From Evansella clarkii (GTDB taxonomy: Bacteria; Bacillota; Bacilli; Bacillales; Salisediminibacteriaceae), in the NCBI RefSeq assembly GCF_002019695.1, contig NZ_KV917376.1:4904072-4968071 (forward strand): 64,000 nucleotides of DNA, read 5' to 3'. The position numbers and the translations under genes were made by a program. Below the pieces are notes generated by a model that made no database searches, was not told where the DNA came from, and saw nothing but the letters and a program-made list of their open reading frames with translations. The first letter of the stretch is position 1. Every line of letters begins with the position of its first letter. Of this stretch, positions 37,103 to 43,871 are shown piece by piece.

Positions 37103-38245
37103 TTACGAGATAAACAAAATAAACAAAGCCTGAACAAGTCCTGCAACTGCGCCGATTAAAGCACCCAGCACAGCGATCATCTTCAGCTCCCGCTTAGCAA
37201 TCTTCAAAACCATTTCTTCAAGATTTTCTAAAGGGAAGTTATTAACCTGGTCACTTACAATACCCTTAATTCCGATTCGTTTCATCACCGACTTTAACTG
37301 CCTTTCAGCCACCTGGGTGAAGCCATCAACGAAGGCTGGCAGCATAGTATAAGTAATTACCTTTTCGTACTGGTGAGCCCACTCTTTTAATGGCCTGTCC
37401 CATTCTCCGATAATCGGGGTTTCATCAACGATAGTCTGTACAAGATAATGTACGTTTTCTTCCAGTTTATCAGCCTTTATATAATCTTCCGGCGTCTTTT
37501 CCAGCATCTCATGCCATTCTCTCCTGATCCAGTAGGTGACATATTCATGCGCTCTTTCATCCCGGAACAGCTTAGTAAGCTCTTTCGATACAAGGGACGA
37601 AAAGGATACTCTCTGGGTAAATCTCCCGATCATTCCTCCAAAGCTCCCTTTTGTTTCAAAAAATCTGGAGACCATTTGGTCAACCTGGTCACGGCCTTCC
37701 GGAGACTGAAAGTATTCTTCACCTTTTTCAAGAACTTTAGCAGAGATTTCAGGAATGTAATCTTCTATTTTATCTTTCCATTCCTCCTGAAGCATGTCGT
37801 TGATTTTTTTATTTTTATAATCGTTAAAAAATACGAGCATTTTTCCTTTAATCGCTCGTTCGTATGCTTCTCTCGCTGCTTTGGTTGACCATGTATCACC
37901 TATATGTTCCTTAAGCCAGTCTTCCACAGTCAGTTCCTGCTGCAAAAAGGTTTCAAGAATAACTTTAATACGCCCTTCCGCTTCCTCAAGGAACTCTCCC
38001 TCAAAAATCTTCCGGGCAACTCCTTCAGGTGTAATCAGGTATTCTTCCACCATCGTACCGAGCTGATCAGCAATTTCCTCTCGTCGTTTAGGAATGAGCC
38101 CCGGAGTGAATGGCACCTGGAAGGAACCTATATATTTGGCATTATGTGGCCGGAGCAGCATTTGAATTGCAAGTATATTCGTTCCTCCTCCGACAGCCGC
38201 CCCGATCAGGATGAGGCCCGCAAACCAGTAAAATTGAAATTCCAT
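37103..38245 (-). CDS. yheB: YheB, DUF445 membrane protein
   Basis: A 380-residue DUF445 protein (B. subtilis YheB is 377). A membrane segment at each end (residues ~5-22 and the last ~22, LGALIGAVAGLVQALFILF) encloses a long helical domain. NILAIQMLLRPHNAKYIGSF near the N-terminus is the family signature. The ATG at 38245 follows AAAGGTG; reading further upstream only translates a repeat element. Function is unknown; the gene travels with spore-coat-associated yheC/yheD. Confidence 0.9.
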   Translation of the reverse strand: MEFQFYWFAGLILIGAAVGGGTNILAIQMLLRPHNAKYIGSFQVPFTPGLIPKRREEIADQLGTMVEEYLITPEGVARKIFEGEFLEEAEGRIKVILETFLQQELTVEDWLKEHIGDTWSTKAAREAYERAIKGKMLVFFNDYKNKKINDMLQEEWKDKIEDYIPEISAKVLEKGEEYFQSPEGRDQVDQMVSRFFETKGSFGGMIGRFTQRVSFSSLVSKELTKLFRDERAHEYVTYWIRREWHEMLEKTPEDYIKADKLEENVHYLVQTIVDETPIIGEWDRPLKEWAHQYEKVITYTMLPAFVDGFTQVAERQLKSVMKRIGIKGIVSDQVNNFPLENLEEMVLKIAKRELKMIAVLGALIGAVAGLVQALFILFIS

Positions 38246-38259
38246 TATTATCACCTTTT

Positions 38260-38418
38260 CTTTATCCCGATGCAACCGTCCGTAAAACTCCCGCCTCAAA
38301 ACATGAGATGAAACGAGGATGTTCAGGCAGGAGATAACGGACGCTAACATCCCGATTGGTTCAACTAGCAATCAGCGGGGGATGAACAAAACTCCCACTG
38401 ATTGAAGGTTCACTTTAT
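38260..38418 (-). promoter_or_regulatory. Structured 159-bp leader element upstream of yheB (copy 1)
   Basis: On the minus strand this element ends two bases before the AAAAGGTG of yheB. It matches 42667-42824 with about 16 differences. It folds as one hairpin (CAATCAGT...GCTGATTG with a GGGAG/CCCCC extension). A second stem, CGTCCGT/ACGGACG, encloses a third, CTCCTGCCT/AGGCGGGAG. Most differences between the copies keep pairing. Confidence 0.75.
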
Positions 38419-38738
38419 TTGCACCATACAGTTTCTTACTTCATAAGATACCATATCCACTGATACCCATACTTTTAAAGTGACTCTGTTTAACTTTGTT
38501 GATGATTTTCGCTTCTGGACGCTTGCTTTCACCACAGGCATAAGCGCAACATCTGCTTAATCTACACTTCGTTCGATTTCGCAGTGTTTTCTTTACCTAT
38601 GGTAATGCTTCAGCTGCAATCAACCGGAGTTTGTTCACAGTTTGATGACAGAGCCTGACTATTAATTAAAAGCTGGTCCAGTTTCCTGCCCTGTGTGCGC
38701 AGGGTGTTTATACGTATGCCGCGGGAATGAGGGATTGT
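38419..38738. other. Gene-free stretch upstream of the first ATP-grasp gene
   Basis: It presumably carries divergent promoters for yheB and the ATP-grasp genes. The part 38500-38600 (GCTTCTGGACGCTTGCTTTC and GCATAAGCGC) resembles intergenic repeat sequence of Bacillaceae as I remember it. No gene was seen. Confidence 0.4.
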
Positions 38739-40100
38739 ATGTTTTCCTTTACTTACAATATAGACAGTATAAAGCTTAATGATAAACTTCCATTTAACCA
38801 AATTGTATTCCCCGAGGAGACAGCACGTTTGTGGAAAATAAATTCTTCTATACCCGGGAAAGCCACATATCATTTTTTATCAAAGGAAATCGAAGTCTCC
38901 ACGAGTGCTGAATTAAGTCCAGGGACTGTTCAACTGCACTCCAGGCTAGCCTCCGAGCTTTCTTTGTCTCCAGGAGAAAAAATCCGCTGCTTATACAGAA
39001 AAAAGGAGAACGTTTTCCAGTTCGGCCCTTCCCTCGGGGTAGTGCTTGGCGACTGTTCGGAAATTAATGAAATGCCATTTGGCGACCTCACGCATTATTT
39101 AACCGAAATGGCAAAAACCTGTGAGAGACTTTACTGCCCTTTTACAGTATTTTCTTATAAAGAGACATCCGGCTCTTATACGGAAGGGTTTAAATACATT
39201 GAAGGAAAATGGGAAAAGTCCCTCACTCCCCTCCCACAGGTAATTTATAATCGCATTGGGCGTAGAGACCAGGAAAAATCCGTTCAATGCAAACACTTTT
39301 TCCAGCGCCTTACAGAATTAAATATACCTTATTTTAATGAAAGGTTCCTTCATAAGTGGGAAGTATATAACTATTTGCTTAATGAACCTGTATTATCACC
39401 TTATCTTCCTGAAACAAAACATTTAAAGTCTTTAGCAGATTTAGAGCAAATGGCAGAAAAACATAGCGGGCTGTATATAAAACCTTTCACAGGAAGAGAA
39501 GGTTCAGGAATTATAAAGGTTTCTGCTGATAACGGAATCTACTTTATTACCTACCCCGCAGATGAAGGGTGGCAAACAAAAAAAGTATCTTCTTTAAAAC
39601 AGCTTTATTCTATGCTTAAAGGAAGAATTATGAGAAGACCCTATATTATTCAGCCAATGATTAGTGTAAATGAGAAATATAAAGCCCCGGTGGACTTCCG
39701 GGTACTTTGTATCAAAGATTCATATAGTATATGGAAGGCATGTTCCGCTGTGGCTCGTGTAGGCCAGAAAAATACAATTGTTTCAAACCTTGCAAAAGGC
39801 GGAAGCCAGAAGCAAGCCCTGTCAATTCTGGAAGAAATCATTCCGTCCGCAGATGTACCGCATACAGAAAGGCTTATGCATGAACTCTCTCTGTTATGCG
39901 CATATGTGTTAGACAGAGAAACAGAAGGTATTTACGGGGAACTTGGCATAGATTTAATGATAGATAACGAAGGGCGCCCATGGATTCTGGAAGTAAATAT
40001 TAAACCTTCCAAAAGCGAACTGCCTGAAGCTGCCGTCAGTCTCCCTTCTGTCAATTTGATTATTTTGTATGCTGTTTCCCTGGCTGGATTTGCAGATTAA
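38739..40100 (+). CDS. ATP-grasp protein, YheD type (long form), copy 1
   Basis: A YheC/YheD-family (PF14398-type) protein; B. subtilis YheD is associated with the spore coat and the ligase substrate is unknown. The 453-residue protein has a ~120-residue N-terminal domain, then a linker with VIYNRIGRRDQE, then the ATP-grasp fold: nucleotide-binding IKPFTGREGSGIIKV, DFRVLCIKDS, and metal-binding GELGIDLMID...WILEVNIKPSK. The ATG at 38739 follows TGAGGGA; an in-frame ATG at 38727 has no spacing to a site. First of a run of four such genes. Confidence 0.87.
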   Translation: MFSFTYNIDSIKLNDKLPFNQIVFPEETARLWKINSSIPGKATYHFLSKEIEVSTSAELSPGTVQLHSRLASELSLSPGEKIRCLYRKKENVFQFGPSLGVVLGDCSEINEMPFGDLTHYLTEMAKTCERLYCPFTVFSYKETSGSYTEGFKYIEGKWEKSLTPLPQVIYNRIGRRDQEKSVQCKHFFQRLTELNIPYFNERFLHKWEVYNYLLNEPVLSPYLPETKHLKSLADLEQMAEKHSGLYIKPFTGREGSGIIKVSADNGIYFITYPADEGWQTKKVSSLKQLYSMLKGRIMRRPYIIQPMISVNEKYKAPVDFRVLCIKDSYSIWKACSAVARVGQKNTIVSNLAKGGSQKQALSILEEIIPSADVPHTERLMHELSLLCAYVLDRETEGIYGELGIDLMIDNEGRPWILEVNIKPSKSELPEAAVSLPSVNLIILYAVSLAGFAD

Positions 40101-40142
40101 TAAGTACTGGATAGTTTACTGTGCTTGGAAAGGATGACTGGC

Positions 40143-41183
40143 ATGGGAAGTCTCGGAATCCTTCAGTGGAATACAGAAAGAACCGATTATTATACAGATC
40201 AGGTAGCCGAACACTGCGCTTCTTCAGGAATACAGGTAGTCAGATTATCTCCCCTGAGCTGTAACTTCAGCACTTTAACTGCGACAGGCTGCCGTTACGA
40301 CCTGTCTGCAGGACAATGGACAAAAGATGTTTTTCCTGTCCCTGACTTCATTTACGATCGCTGTTTTTATCCTCCTGGCAGTAAAGAAAAAAAGCGGGTA
40401 ACTGAAGCTTCTGAGCAATTAAAAAAGCTCAGTGTTTTTCTTGGATCTGGCCTCCCAAATAAATGGGCTGTATACCGATGGCTCAGGAAAGATTCCCGTA
40501 TCGCCAGTTTTCTTCCCCCTACACAGCTTCTTGAAGAAGATGTGTTGAATGCCTACGTGAATGCTTTTGGGACGGTAGTTATAAAACCAGTCTTCGGTTC
40601 CGGCGGCGACGGATTTCATGTAATCCGTCGCCGGGACAATACAATCAGTCTTTATAATAAAAGCAAAGAACTCCTGCTGGCTGAAGACAGCGGGGCAACT
40701 TTATATAAATTTTTAAAAAGCAGCTTACCAGCTTCAAGGTACATTATTCAGCCTTTTCTCAAGCTGCAGTTGAACGGCCGGCCGTTTGATTTAAGGGTGG
40801 TAATGCAGAAAGAATCTCCTGAACACTGGTATGAGGCGGGCAAAGGATACCGGGTTGGCCGGAAAAATTCCTATGTGTCTAATTTGAGAGCAGGGGGCAG
40901 AATCTCCTCTTCCCTGAACCACCACAGTGGAGAATATAAACAAGCTGAACAAATTGCCGAAAAAATCTCTCCCTTAATACCATTCGTTCTGGAAAAGTAT
41001 CATCAGCCTCTTTTTGAGCTGGGAATTGACTACGGACTTGATTCCCAAGGAAAACTCTGGATCATTGAGGTTAATTCCAAGCCAGGTTACGAAACTGTCA
41101 TGAAAACAACAGATAATACCAGAAAGAAACTGATTTTTTCCAGGCCTGCCCGCCTCATCAGACAACTGGAAAACTCAGAATAA
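40143..41183 (+). CDS. ATP-grasp protein, YheC type (short form), copy 1
   Basis: A 346-residue short-form member that starts directly with the LGILQWN strand, as YheC does (B. subtilis YheC about 363). It has FIYDRCFYPPGS, the nucleotide-binding IKPVFGSGGDGFHVI, PFDLRVVMQK and the metal site ELGIDYGLD...WIIEVNSKPGYE. AAAGGA lies eight bases before the ATG at 40143; earlier in-frame TTG (40125) and ATG (40134) are less well placed. It follows the first long form by 42 bp, so they are likely co-transcribed. Confidence 0.87.
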   Translation: MGSLGILQWNTERTDYYTDQVAEHCASSGIQVVRLSPLSCNFSTLTATGCRYDLSAGQWTKDVFPVPDFIYDRCFYPPGSKEKKRVTEASEQLKKLSVFLGSGLPNKWAVYRWLRKDSRIASFLPPTQLLEEDVLNAYVNAFGTVVIKPVFGSGGDGFHVIRRRDNTISLYNKSKELLLAEDSGATLYKFLKSSLPASRYIIQPFLKLQLNGRPFDLRVVMQKESPEHWYEAGKGYRVGRKNSYVSNLRAGGRISSSLNHHSGEYKQAEQIAEKISPLIPFVLEKYHQPLFELGIDYGLDSQGKLWIIEVNSKPGYETVMKTTDNTRKKLIFSRPARLIRQLENSE

Positions 41184-41244
41184 AGGGTCAACAATAAAAG
41201 CACAGCCTTAAGATTAGTGATGCTGCAACTAAGGAGTGAGTATA

Positions 41245-42636
41245 TTGTCTTTTATAACTGAAGTCTCCCTTAATGAACTTGAGGAGGAGAGCAGCAGTCT
41301 GCTCCTCTCCAGACAGATGCTTGATAAATTATCACTCAAGGCAGGTTCAGAGCAGTATGTTTTTTTTGGCACAAAGAAAACCGCATGTACAATAAGCATC
41401 GCAGTTGATGAGAAAAATGACCGTTGCTTTCTGTCTAAAAAAGCATGGGACAGTCTCAGTATTCCGTTTCCTGTAAAGTTAAATATTCTTTCAAGTGACA
41501 CAGGGGACATTTATTTAGGTCCTGTAGTCGGGATTTACACAGCAGGTTTTACAGGAAACCTGCTTCGTCCGGCCGGAGAAAGATCTTTCTTGTTTGCCAA
41601 ATATATCAGCGCAGCTAAAGCGGCCGGTGTTCTGGCTTTTATCTTCGGTTCCCACCATCTTATGTGGGAAGAGGGAACGGTGGAAGGTTACACATACGGC
41701 AGGAAAGGATGGAAAAAAATTAAAGTCCCTCTGCCCAATGTAGTTTATGACAGGCTGCCTAACAGAAAGACAGAAGAACACCCACTCTATGCAGAAACAA
41801 GAGACCGGCTGCAAAATGAATACAGCATACCGTGGTTTAATCCAGGCTTCTTTGATAAATGGACCGTGTATAATCAGCTTTCCGGTTACCCAATGGTGAG
41901 CAGTCTGATGCCCCGGACCATATCAGCCCCTTCCGCTGTTGAAGTGAAAGAGTTTATTGAAAAATACAAGCATATTTATATAAAGCCTAAAAATGGAAGC
42001 CTGGGACTCGGTATACACCAGATCATTTTTGATCCTGATGAGCAGCTTTATTACTGCCGTTTCAGAGACCATTCCAGAAACAGGTTAAGGCGTTACGGAA
42101 GTCTGAACGGTCTCTTAAAGACACAGTTTCCTCATGGTTATGAGAACATGGTCATCCAGCAAGGAATAGATTTATTAAAATATCAGAATAACCCGATAGA
42201 TTTTCGCATCCACACAAATAAAGATGAAACAGGAAAATGGCGTATTACTGCAATAGCCGCGAAAGTGGCTGGCGCTGGCAGTGTTACTACCCACGTAAAA
42301 AGCGGCGGGCAGGTTAAATCGGTTAATGAAATATGGGAAGAGCTGCAGCTGGGAAGGGATCTTCTTGATGATTTAAAAAATATCTCGCTGAAACTAAGCA
42401 CAGCGATAGATGAAACGACAGATGGTTGTATCGGAGAAATCGGCTTCGATATAGGCATTGATGAAAAGGAAAATATCTGGATGTTCGAAGCGAATTCCAA
42501 GCCTGGCAGAACAATTTTCTTCCATCCGAAGCTTAAACGGGAAGACCTTCTAACACGAAAGTTGCCGATGGATTATGCAGTATGTTTATTCAGGAAATCC
42601 ATTGAAGCCGCTGCTGCGGAAGGAGTCACCATGTAA
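41245..42636 (+). CDS. ATP-grasp protein, YheD type (long form), copy 2
   Basis: A 463-residue long-form paralogue with the same layout as copy 1: an N-terminal domain of ~115 residues, VVYDRLPNRKTEEHP, IKPKNGSLGLGIHQI, DFRIHTNKDE and the metal site EIGFDIGID...WMFEANSKPGR. The TTG at 41245 is chosen because AAGGAG at 41231-41236 lies eight bases upstream; a GTG at 41236 overlaps that site. It follows the short form by 61 bp. Confidence 0.86.
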   Translation: MSFITEVSLNELEEESSSLLLSRQMLDKLSLKAGSEQYVFFGTKKTACTISIAVDEKNDRCFLSKKAWDSLSIPFPVKLNILSSDTGDIYLGPVVGIYTAGFTGNLLRPAGERSFLFAKYISAAKAAGVLAFIFGSHHLMWEEGTVEGYTYGRKGWKKIKVPLPNVVYDRLPNRKTEEHPLYAETRDRLQNEYSIPWFNPGFFDKWTVYNQLSGYPMVSSLMPRTISAPSAVEVKEFIEKYKHIYIKPKNGSLGLGIHQIIFDPDEQLYYCRFRDHSRNRLRRYGSLNGLLKTQFPHGYENMVIQQGIDLLKYQNNPIDFRIHTNKDETGKWRITAIAAKVAGAGSVTTHVKSGGQVKSVNEIWEELQLGRDLLDDLKNISLKLSTAIDETTDGCIGEIGFDIGIDEKENIWMFEANSKPGRTIFFHPKLKREDLLTRKLPMDYAVCLFRKSIEAAAAEGVTM

Positions 42637-42666
42637 AGAGTAAGTCTTGTAAAACGCATCCTGCGT

Positions 42667-42824
42667 ATAAAGTGAACCTTCAATCAGTGGGGTTTTCGTT
42701 CATCCCCAACTGGTTGTTAGTTGAACCAATCGGGATGTTAGCGTCCGTTATTCCCCCCTAAACATCTTTGCTTCCACTTATGTTTTGAGGCGGGAGTTTT
42801 ACGGACGGTTGCATCGGGATAAAG
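42667..42824 (+). promoter_or_regulatory. Structured 158-bp leader element upstream of the fourth ATP-grasp gene (copy 2)
   Basis: Inverted relative to copy 1 at 38260-38418. Stem 1 pairs 42681-42692 with 42704-42716; stem 2 pairs CGTCCGT (42742-42748) with ACGGACG (42801-42807); stem 3 pairs 42751-42765 with 42780-42796 (one mismatch). It ends at ATAAAG, immediately overlapping the AAAGGGTG ribosome binding site of the next gene. Confidence 0.75.
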
Positions 42825-42833
42825 GGTGAGACA

Positions 42834-43871
42834 ATGGCAGCTAACCATAATAATCCAGAAGAAAGAAATATTATTATTTTGACCGGGCAAGGGAAAGACA
42901 GAAAGTTTACAGGTGAGACACGTTTCTATGAGCAGCTCGCTGAAACGGCCCGAAAGAGACGGGGAAAGGTTTACATTCTTCCTTTTAGAGGAGGCGAGGC
43001 GGCAGACGGAAAGGCATTTAGCTGGGATATGGAAAGGAAAGAATGGGTGGAGACTTCCTGTCCGGAGCCCGATGTGGTATACAATCGTTTTTCTGACAGG
43101 TTTACAGAATGGGCAGATCCAGTCCAGCAATATTTTAACGAGCTGGAAAAAGAGAAAATCCCTTACTTTAATCGTTGTTTCTTTAACAAACTTCATACCT
43201 CCTCCCTTTTGCAAAATCATCGGGTGCTGAAAAAATATTATCCTGAAACAAAGAGGATGGCAACGAGGGATGATTTGGCCGCTTTTCTAAATAAGCACAA
43301 TGCCGTTTTTATTAAAGATATCCACGGCTCACAAGGACAAGGGATATGGAAAGTAGAAAACAATGGCACCTCCTATACCCTTCAAACTCAGAAGCAGCAA
43401 TATAAAGGACTGTCATTTCAGAACCTTGCCGAACTTTTAAAGCCTGTGTATAAAAAGAAAACATTGCTTATCCAGGAAGGAATCCCCCTTACGTTATTGA
43501 ATGACAGAACTTATGATTTCAGAGTCCTTGTTCATTTTTTCGCTGGAAAATGGCACGTAACGGGGATCGGCGTCCGCCAGGCCCGCAATGGTGGATACAC
43601 CACCCACGTTCCACAGGGCGGCCGTATCCTGTCTTTTGACTCAGTCCCTGTAAAGCCGGACCCGGAAACTGTGAAGCAGTTGTCAGCACATATAGGAAAA
43701 ATGCTGGATTTAAAATTTCAGAATGTAAGGGAGTTTTCTTTCGATTTAGGTACAGACGATGAAGGCGGGCTGTGGATTCTGGACGTTAACAGTAAGCCAA
43801 TGATGTTTGATGAACGAGAGATAAATAAAAAGAGGATCAATACTCTGGCAAGGATATTTGCCGAGGCTTAG
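42834..43871 (+). CDS. ATP-grasp protein, YheC type (short form), copy 2
   Basis: A 345-residue short-form member: IIILTGQGKDRKF at the start, VVYNRFSDRFTEWADP, nucleotide-binding IKDIHGSQGQGIWKV, DFRVLVHFFAGK and the metal site FSFDLGTDDEGG...WILDVNSKPMMF. AAAGGGTG precedes the ATG. It is more divergent than the other three. It is the only one of the four with the structured leader directly upstream, 197 bp after the previous gene, and may form a separate transcription unit. Confidence 0.86.
   Translation: MAANHNNPEERNIIILTGQGKDRKFTGETRFYEQLAETARKRRGKVYILPFRGGEAADGKAFSWDMERKEWVETSCPEPDVVYNRFSDRFTEWADPVQQYFNELEKEKIPYFNRCFFNKLHTSSLLQNHRVLKKYYPETKRMATRDDLAAFLNKHNAVFIKDIHGSQGQGIWKVENNGTSYTLQTQKQQYKGLSFQNLAELLKPVYKKKTLLIQEGIPLTLLNDRTYDFRVLVHFFAGKWHVTGIGVRQARNGGYTTHVPQGGRILSFDSVPVKPDPETVKQLSAHIGKMLDLKFQNVREFSFDLGTDDEGGLWILDVNSKPMMFDEREINKKRINTLARIFAEA

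Follow-up and report, generated by a model that had tools for sequence, protein, structure and literature searches.

The 64,000-nucleotide stretch of Evansella clarkii DNA analysed here (the window; contig NZ_KV917376.1, positions 4,904,072 to 4,968,071) carries two copies, A and B, of a structured repeat, which an initial annotation had regarded as either a cis-regulatory RNA of spore-coat-related genes or a dispersed mobile repeat. Our analysis indicates that the two copies almost certainly belong to a mobile repeat and are not a dedicated leader. The element is probably a non-coding, non-autonomous, bcr1-like sequence of about 158 bp, bounded by TTTAT and moving as folded single-stranded DNA as members of IS200/IS605 do. 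Copies are scattered through intergenic DNA, sit at single TTTAT-like sites and occur in some Bacillales genera and not in others; the fold is conserved across genera, and the orientation follows replication.

Both copies were found where they had been annotated, with coordinates correct to one base. They are 158 (copy A) and 157 bp (copy B) long and lie in opposite orientation. In their alignment 143 positions are identical, 13 are mismatched and 3 are gaps. Read in the sense of the initial annotation, each ends just upstream of a start codon, 15 nt before the ATG at 38245 (minus strand) of a yheB-like gene for copy A and 10 nt before the ATG at 42834 (plus strand) of an ATP-grasp gene for copy B; the start at 38245 is our own choice, and the mechanical list of open reading frames (ORFs) begins the same frame at a TTG within the element. 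In that sense a hairpin and then a two-tier stem, the longer of the two, are predicted in both copies, in line with the earlier description.

The host genome (G000; 5,476,388 bases in 7 contigs; G-numbers denote genomes, C-numbers contigs and L-numbers fetched loci) contains at least 82 copies, spread over unrelated loci in both orientations, which agrees with a repeat lying by chance in front of two genes and is largely the outcome that the initial annotation had named as refuting its RNA reading. A core 18-mer, allowing up to 2 mismatches, matched 82 times, 40 forward and 42 reverse (reversed-pattern control, 0), and patterns for the left and right ends matched at 99 (control, 2) and 98 sites (control, 0), respectively. 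At least 40 full-length matches, scored among 116 candidates, showed 88–93% identity, the query itself excepted. When the 82 fetched loci, two of which are the window copies, were compared together with the window by blastn, we obtained 87 element matches, a few of them partial, and none of the 87 lay within a called ORF. The strand that we call active reads TTTATCCCGATG ... GGTTCACTTTAT, with the layout TTTAT, hairpin A, hairpin B, TTTAT. Each base of the terminal TTTAT is conserved in 90–96% of the 87 matches, and the flanking bases are near random. Out of 80 copies, both ends were intact in 53, only the right end was variant in 15 (3 of which are partial, with the right end extrapolated), only the left end in 10, and both ends in 2. 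In these last two copies the ends carry different letters, and nothing suggests a duplicated variable target. The ends are not inverted repeats of one another (GTGAACCTT versus CCCGATG). A consensus of 77 copies is 158 bases long, and since the median identity of copies to it is 92%, most copies are not young. In L178–L217 the A–B composite also contains internal ATCCCGAT and GGTTCAAC motifs that resemble its two ends, which gives it the look of a fusion between smaller hairpin units, each bounded by TTTAT. At L308:9085-9310 a variant carries about 75 extra hairpin-like bases between hairpins A and B, a similar extra sequence starting in L154 near 6600.

Empty sites were sought by comparing 10 orthologous positions, chosen by eye among the matches listed. 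Four read as empty sites, of which one was clean and the others had junctions that were changed or decayed. A further three showed internal deletions in place, one retained a residual end, and two could not be read (L074; L288 versus L272). In the cleanest case, a copy in G027 corresponds in G031 to a single TTTTAT with the same flank after it. One TTTAT-like sequence also stands at each of the less clean empty sites (G000/L084 versus G003/L295; G003/L303 versus G000/L094; G000/L031 versus G003/L302). The comparison of L094 with L303 was rejected as an empty site, as it reads as a residual element end. In-place deletions distinguished the full copy at L093 of G000 from a 54-bp form at L303 of G003, the full copy at L300 of G003 from a form lacking hairpin B at L167 of G000, and L272 of G031 from L288 of G027. 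Deletion forms that kept both ends were seen in five sizes, about 52, 54, 95, 98 and 125 bp. Solitary A-half or B-half copies are present in the host genome, and in the relatives many of the listed matches span one half only. Finally, head-to-tail copies with one common TTTAT at the junction occur at L197, L207, L208, L209 and L217. Such arrays would be expected had a resident end served as the target, but unequal recombination can generate them too. A separate tandem run at L196 (G017:C1:1670800-1673200) comprises six element units spaced by about 152 bp, with the variant TTATAT at the junctions.

The orientation of the copies follows replication, not transcription. With dnaA at C1:1.138 Mb and the sign of the GC skew at the copies flipping near 3.4 Mb, 65 of 87 copies have the active strand in the leading sense and hence on the template for lagging-strand synthesis (one-sided binomial P about 2e-6). 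The choice of border mattered little: 64 of 87 copies had this orientation with the terminus placed opposite dnaA, and 66 of 87 with the origin placed from the skew at about 1.31 Mb. Among the 85 copies with two called neighbours (the other two, without a called neighbour, fall outside this breakdown), the bias was 26:9 between divergent or convergent genes, 12:1 among lagging-strand genes and 27:10 among leading-strand genes. Relative to co-directional genes the element showed no preference (28:22), and 44 of the 85 copies were oriented as a leader would be, which is the chance expectation and not the recurrent same-orientation placement 5' of one gene class that a regulatory RNA had been predicted to show. 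Gene calls rest on a simple rule, the longest ORF, and individual assignments may err. Having found the pattern in the host genome, we next examined three relatives with complete or nearly complete sequences, taking copies from two exact patterns and the best matches of the survey of 100 genomes; G017, with no pattern match, was left out. The active strand was in the leading sense in 26 of 31 copies in G031, 25 of 39 in G027 and 21 of 31 in G003 (4 more near borders were set aside), or 72 of 101 pooled (one-sided P = 1e-5).

The fold was assessed with RNAalifold on an alignment of 16 copies from the host genome, nine relatives and Bacillus sp. SD088. In the resulting structure of 30 pairs, 96.2% of cells pair, compared with 84.7% in shuffles. 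Double changes occur in 13 of the 30 pairs and in 52 cells, versus 14.1 in shuffled alignments (none of 500 as high) and 2–4 in slid controls, over which the structure has the advantage of being derived from the same alignment. Both hairpins are thus conserved across genera, and the proposal that changes keeping the pairing reflect selection holds to this extent. It does not extend to RNA-level selection on the inserted copies. In the host genome, stem mismatches are symmetric (80 G.T versus 79 A.C), and because a selected RNA should favour G.U, no RNA selection on inserted copies is detectable in either sense; broken stem cells number 231, versus 263 expected under column independence. Selection appears to have worked at the level of the element family, the simplest target being a transposition intermediate of folded DNA (or RNA). 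In the cross-genus alignment the active strand has more G.T than A.C mismatches (15:5; P = 0.02, five of the 15 coming from one pair), a hint that the active strand is the one that folds. The AAC before hairpin A and the CTA before hairpin B are invariant in the 16 aligned copies. Of 80 copies in the host genome, 47 have TAAC as the four bases preceding hairpin A, and most of the others keep AA; the possible pairing of these guide-like tetranucleotides with TTTAT spans three bases only. The foot of the hairpins varies among genera: CGTC is present in hairpin A of the host genome and not in several others.

At an E-value of 1e-8 the element was detected in 16 of 100 Bacillales genomes (the host genome and 99 relatives), representing 12 of 63 genera. 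Only one of eight other species of the same genus (G003) carries it, and four of the 16 positive genomes (G037, G045, G075 and G077) rest on one or two, mostly partial, matches. Named hosts were few in the collections searched and include Bacillus sp. SD088 and plasmids of Pseudalkalibacillus hwajinpoensis and, with a partial match, Peribacillus asahii. Altogether two or three plasmid records gave partial or full matches, and extra matches at E-values up to 1 looked like chance. Two right-end matches were found in viral contigs and none of the element in phage records. Plasmids of the B. cereus group gave no blastn match with three element variants at an E-value of 1e-5 or with a fourth at 1. 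A literature search, with many subscription papers outside its reach, returned no report of such an element across Bacillales and none of a replication-linked orientation of bcr1. As a separate observation, plasmid pNY3A (CP079755.1; L176), recorded as Klebsiella grimontii, contains a deletion form (a partial match) and, elsewhere, a TnpB 74% identical to that of the host genome; pNY3A may be a Bacillales plasmid entered under the wrong host.

Based on these data, we propose that the element would move as folded single-stranded DNA of the TTTATCCC... strand. Both excision and insertion would occur at a TTTAT in the lagging-strand template, with insertion on its 3' side. The two hairpins would serve as recognition elements for a trans-acting single-strand recombinase. 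After insertion, copies decay, some losing internal segments in place, and the adjoining genes are probably bystanders. Insertion of a single strand at the lagging strand is the version of this step towards which we lean.

Several observations weigh against this account. First, TTTAT at both ends cannot by itself discriminate between target duplication and IS605-type insertion. Second, G027 (P = 0.054, not significant alone) and G003 (P = 0.035) show less of an orientation bias than G031 (P = 1e-4); the replichore borders in these relatives derive from the GC skew of only 12, 13 and 15 stretches of 20 kb, and insertions common to G000 and G003 and to G017 and G031 mean that the genomes are not fully independent. 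An RNA-mediated route would, moreover, be expected to give the same strand bias. Third, double changes in stems of the host genome number 28, compared with 7.4 expected, and may point to a degree of selection or to subfamilies; we set this within-genome covariation aside as support, because a single G-C to A-T pair accounts for 9 of the 28 and the count of broken pairs is close to that under independence. Fourth, no autonomous copy was present among the end sites inspected in the host genome. Finally, Y1_Tnp (PF01797, E-value 1e-3) went undetected in four of the 16 element-positive genomes (G017, G031, G077 and G088), and a profile built from the four Y1 genes of the host genome was absent from 7 of the 16 positive genomes and present in 59 of the 84 negative ones, RAYTs being at least as common without the element as with it.

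These last results bear on a rival explanation, mobilisation in trans by a classical Y1 transposase of the IS200/IS605 or RAYT type, since lost in some hosts. We regard it as possible, although rather unlikely. The orientation on the lagging-strand template, the TTTAT target and the subterminal hairpins would all fit such an enzyme. IS200/IS605 transposases act on single-stranded DNA with a preference for the lagging-strand template (PMC6006769), and target recognition in IS608 relies on base pairs between the target and a guide located 5' to the foot of the hairpin (A+16:T-3 and A+17:T-4; PMC5934647). By analogy, the AA of the N-A-A-C preceding hairpin A could pair with T-3 and T-4, and CTA(A) precedes hairpin B. 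The host genome also contains four Y1_Tnp genes, all RAYT-like in our reading, and two TnpB genes. Because PF01797 covers RAYTs only partly (PMC6006769, in the part available), a second profile, for RAYTs, was added; neither a Y1 transposase nor a RAYT was detected in the element-positive G017, G031 and G088. Conversely, six of seven congeners without the element carry strong IS200-type Y1 matches. We also scanned RAYT flanks in eight positive relatives, not covering all RAYTs (for example, four of six matches in G065 and one of two in G075). Besides L109 of the host genome, element matches were found only in G065; the flanks scanned in G003, G073, G097, G037, G075, G090 and G045 contained no element at an E-value of 0.01. 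Taken over the 100 genomes, co-occurrence speaks against the Y1/RAYT genes found as the mobiliser, and it is possible that a Y1 enzyme was lost after the element had spread. The search for a mobiliser covered the Y1/RAYT and TnpB families.

Individual candidates in the host genome were rejected as well. At L109 (493-1297 and 1958-2342; G000:C1, about 2.42 Mb), six tandem palindromic repeats spaced by 101 bp lie downstream of a RAYT-like Y1 gene. Directly upstream of the gene is a complex segment derived from the element, in which four repeats of 42 bp come from its inner part. As a mobiliser this RAYT gained no backing from co-occurrence or from the RAYT flanks scanned elsewhere. The TnpB loci L110 and L111 have no ends in common with the element: among the best 30 matches listed, those in L110 were of 13 bases only, and L111 had none. 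The one left–right end pair 2 kb apart (C1:2310510-2312545), considered as an autonomous version, consists of ordinary genes between two degenerate copies that are independent of each other.

A more speculative possibility, tentative and in our view unlikely to hold as it stands, is that a Bacillales-wide, gene-less family inserts at TTTAT without any HUH/Y1 transposase, by means of an unrecognised, perhaps host-encoded, single-strand recombinase or by an RNA-based route. The best case for Y1-free insertion is G031, whose copies show the strongest replication-linked orientation and in which no Y1 or RAYT was detected. One such RNA-based route, retro-insertion of active-strand RNA into the lagging-strand template helped by a resident reverse transcriptase, would agree with the excess of G.T over A.C across genera and with the lack of a co-occurring Y1 transposase. 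However, no RNA family was recognised, and the TTTAT direct repeats and head-to-tail insertions are equally explained by DNA recombination, so that we consider this route improbable. Less probable again is a classical miniature inverted-repeat transposable element (MITE), moved by a DDE transposase acting on short inverted repeats and leaving a 5-bp TTTAT duplication. The 5-bp direct repeats, small size and high copy number would suit a MITE, a label that a passage of PMC3733652 gives to bcr1, but terminal inverted repeats are absent and the orientation depends on replication. Last, a cis-regulatory leader of the yheB and ATP-grasp (spore-coat-type) genes, selected at both sites, is hardly credible, and as a general function of the element it is refuted: the two copies do sit in leader position and fold well, the pairing is conserved across genera, and mRNAs of two B. 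cereus strains were reported to include 84 of 165 and 62 of 155 intergenic bcr repeats, respectively (PMC3446304), but the dispersal over unrelated loci, the chance frequency of leader-like orientation, the near-independent and symmetric decay of the stems and the Rfam searches, which found no family anywhere in the window at gathering thresholds and none on the element at relaxed ones, all stand against it.

Among known repeats, bcr1 carries TTTAT repeats at its borders, and the title of a 2004 paper reportedly describes it as specific to the B. cereus group. The element is like bcr1 (group A, bcr1–bcr3) in being a high-copy, intergenic, structured repeat of about 150–170 bp with TTTAT at its borders. 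It differs from bcr1, published as restricted to the B. cereus group, by its presence in 12 of 63 genera, a difference that applies only if the two are homologous; our likeness is one of description and not of compared sequences, and we do not claim membership. The table of PMC2267715 gives a size of 147 or 167 bp for bcr1, and a passage of PMC6542083 mentions repetitions of the TTTAT motif and a proposed mobility resembling site-specific recombination. The same table of PMC2267715 lists the stem-loop families Bhal-1 (74 bp, B. halodurans) and Bant-1 (72 bp), whose sizes fit the standalone B half in several relatives, an agreement in size and host order, not one of compared sequences. With IS200/IS605 (IS608, ISDra2) and their non-autonomous derivatives the element shares a short AT-rich target, the lagging-strand template bias and subterminal hairpins on the strand with the target at its 5' side; unlike them, it has no transposase gene, bears TTTAT at both ends and does not consistently co-occur with Y1 in its hosts. 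Similar to REP/REPIN sequences with RAYTs, it forms dispersed intergenic hairpins, and RAYTs occur in many hosts sampled. Unlike REP/REPIN (20–40 bp; PMC3733652, in part), it is 158 bp long, has no GTAG/CGTC foot conserved across genera and lacks RAYT co-occurrence. From DDE MITEs it is set apart by having no terminal inverted repeats.

Table 1. Positions in the window of the two element copies, their parts and the adjoining genes.
Feature	Position	Strand	Description and basis
Copy A	38261..38418	+	Active strand TTTATCCCG...GGTTCACTTTAT; minus sense directly upstream of the DUF445/yheB-like start; model match 1.9e-38 (copy included in the model's alignment)
Copy B	42667..42823	- (active strand)	Plus sense directly upstream of the ATP-grasp gene; model match 1.4e-35 (copy included in the model's alignment)
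Left terminal TTTAT, copy A	38261..38265	+	Target-site sequence; end conservation over copies
Right terminal TTTAT, copy A	38414..38418	+	End conservation over copies
Hairpin A, copy A (two-tier stem)	38277..38343	+	Fold and cross-genus double changes
Hairpin B, copy A	38369..38404	+	Fold and cross-genus double changes
CAAC directly 5' of hairpin A, copy A	38273..38276	+	Candidate guide-like tetranucleotide, putative; IS608 rule
Right terminal TTTAT, copy B (ATAAA on +)	42667..42671	-	End conservation over copies
Left terminal TTTAT, copy B (ATAAA on +)	42819..42823	-	End conservation over copies
Hairpin A, copy B	42742..42807	-	Predicted fold
Hairpin B, copy B	42681..42716	-	Predicted fold
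DUF445 (YheB-like) gene, putative bystander adjoining copy A	37103..38245	-	Pfam PF04286, 5e-56
YheC/D-like ATP-grasp gene, putative bystander adjoining copy B	42834..43871	+	Pfam PF14398, 1.3e-56

Beside the repeats, the window contains four consecutive YheC/D-like ATP-grasp genes on one strand (38727-43871), the gene adjoining copy B among them, with PF14398 in all four. A search of the named genomes for relatives of the ATP-grasp gene gave no match.

According to the published passages available, the mobility of bcr1-type repeats has so far only been proposed. The replication-linked orientation and the empty sites make it a testable claim, with folded single-stranded DNA at the fork as the presumed substrate and TTTAT as the target. 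The patchy distribution across the order, together with the lack of Y1 co-occurrence, defines the search for the enzyme. The two window copies also carry a warning for annotation, in that well-folded leaders with a few seemingly compensating changes can be decaying mobile repeats, and testing for symmetry between G.T and A.C mismatches helps to tell a selected RNA from a mobile repeat in decay.

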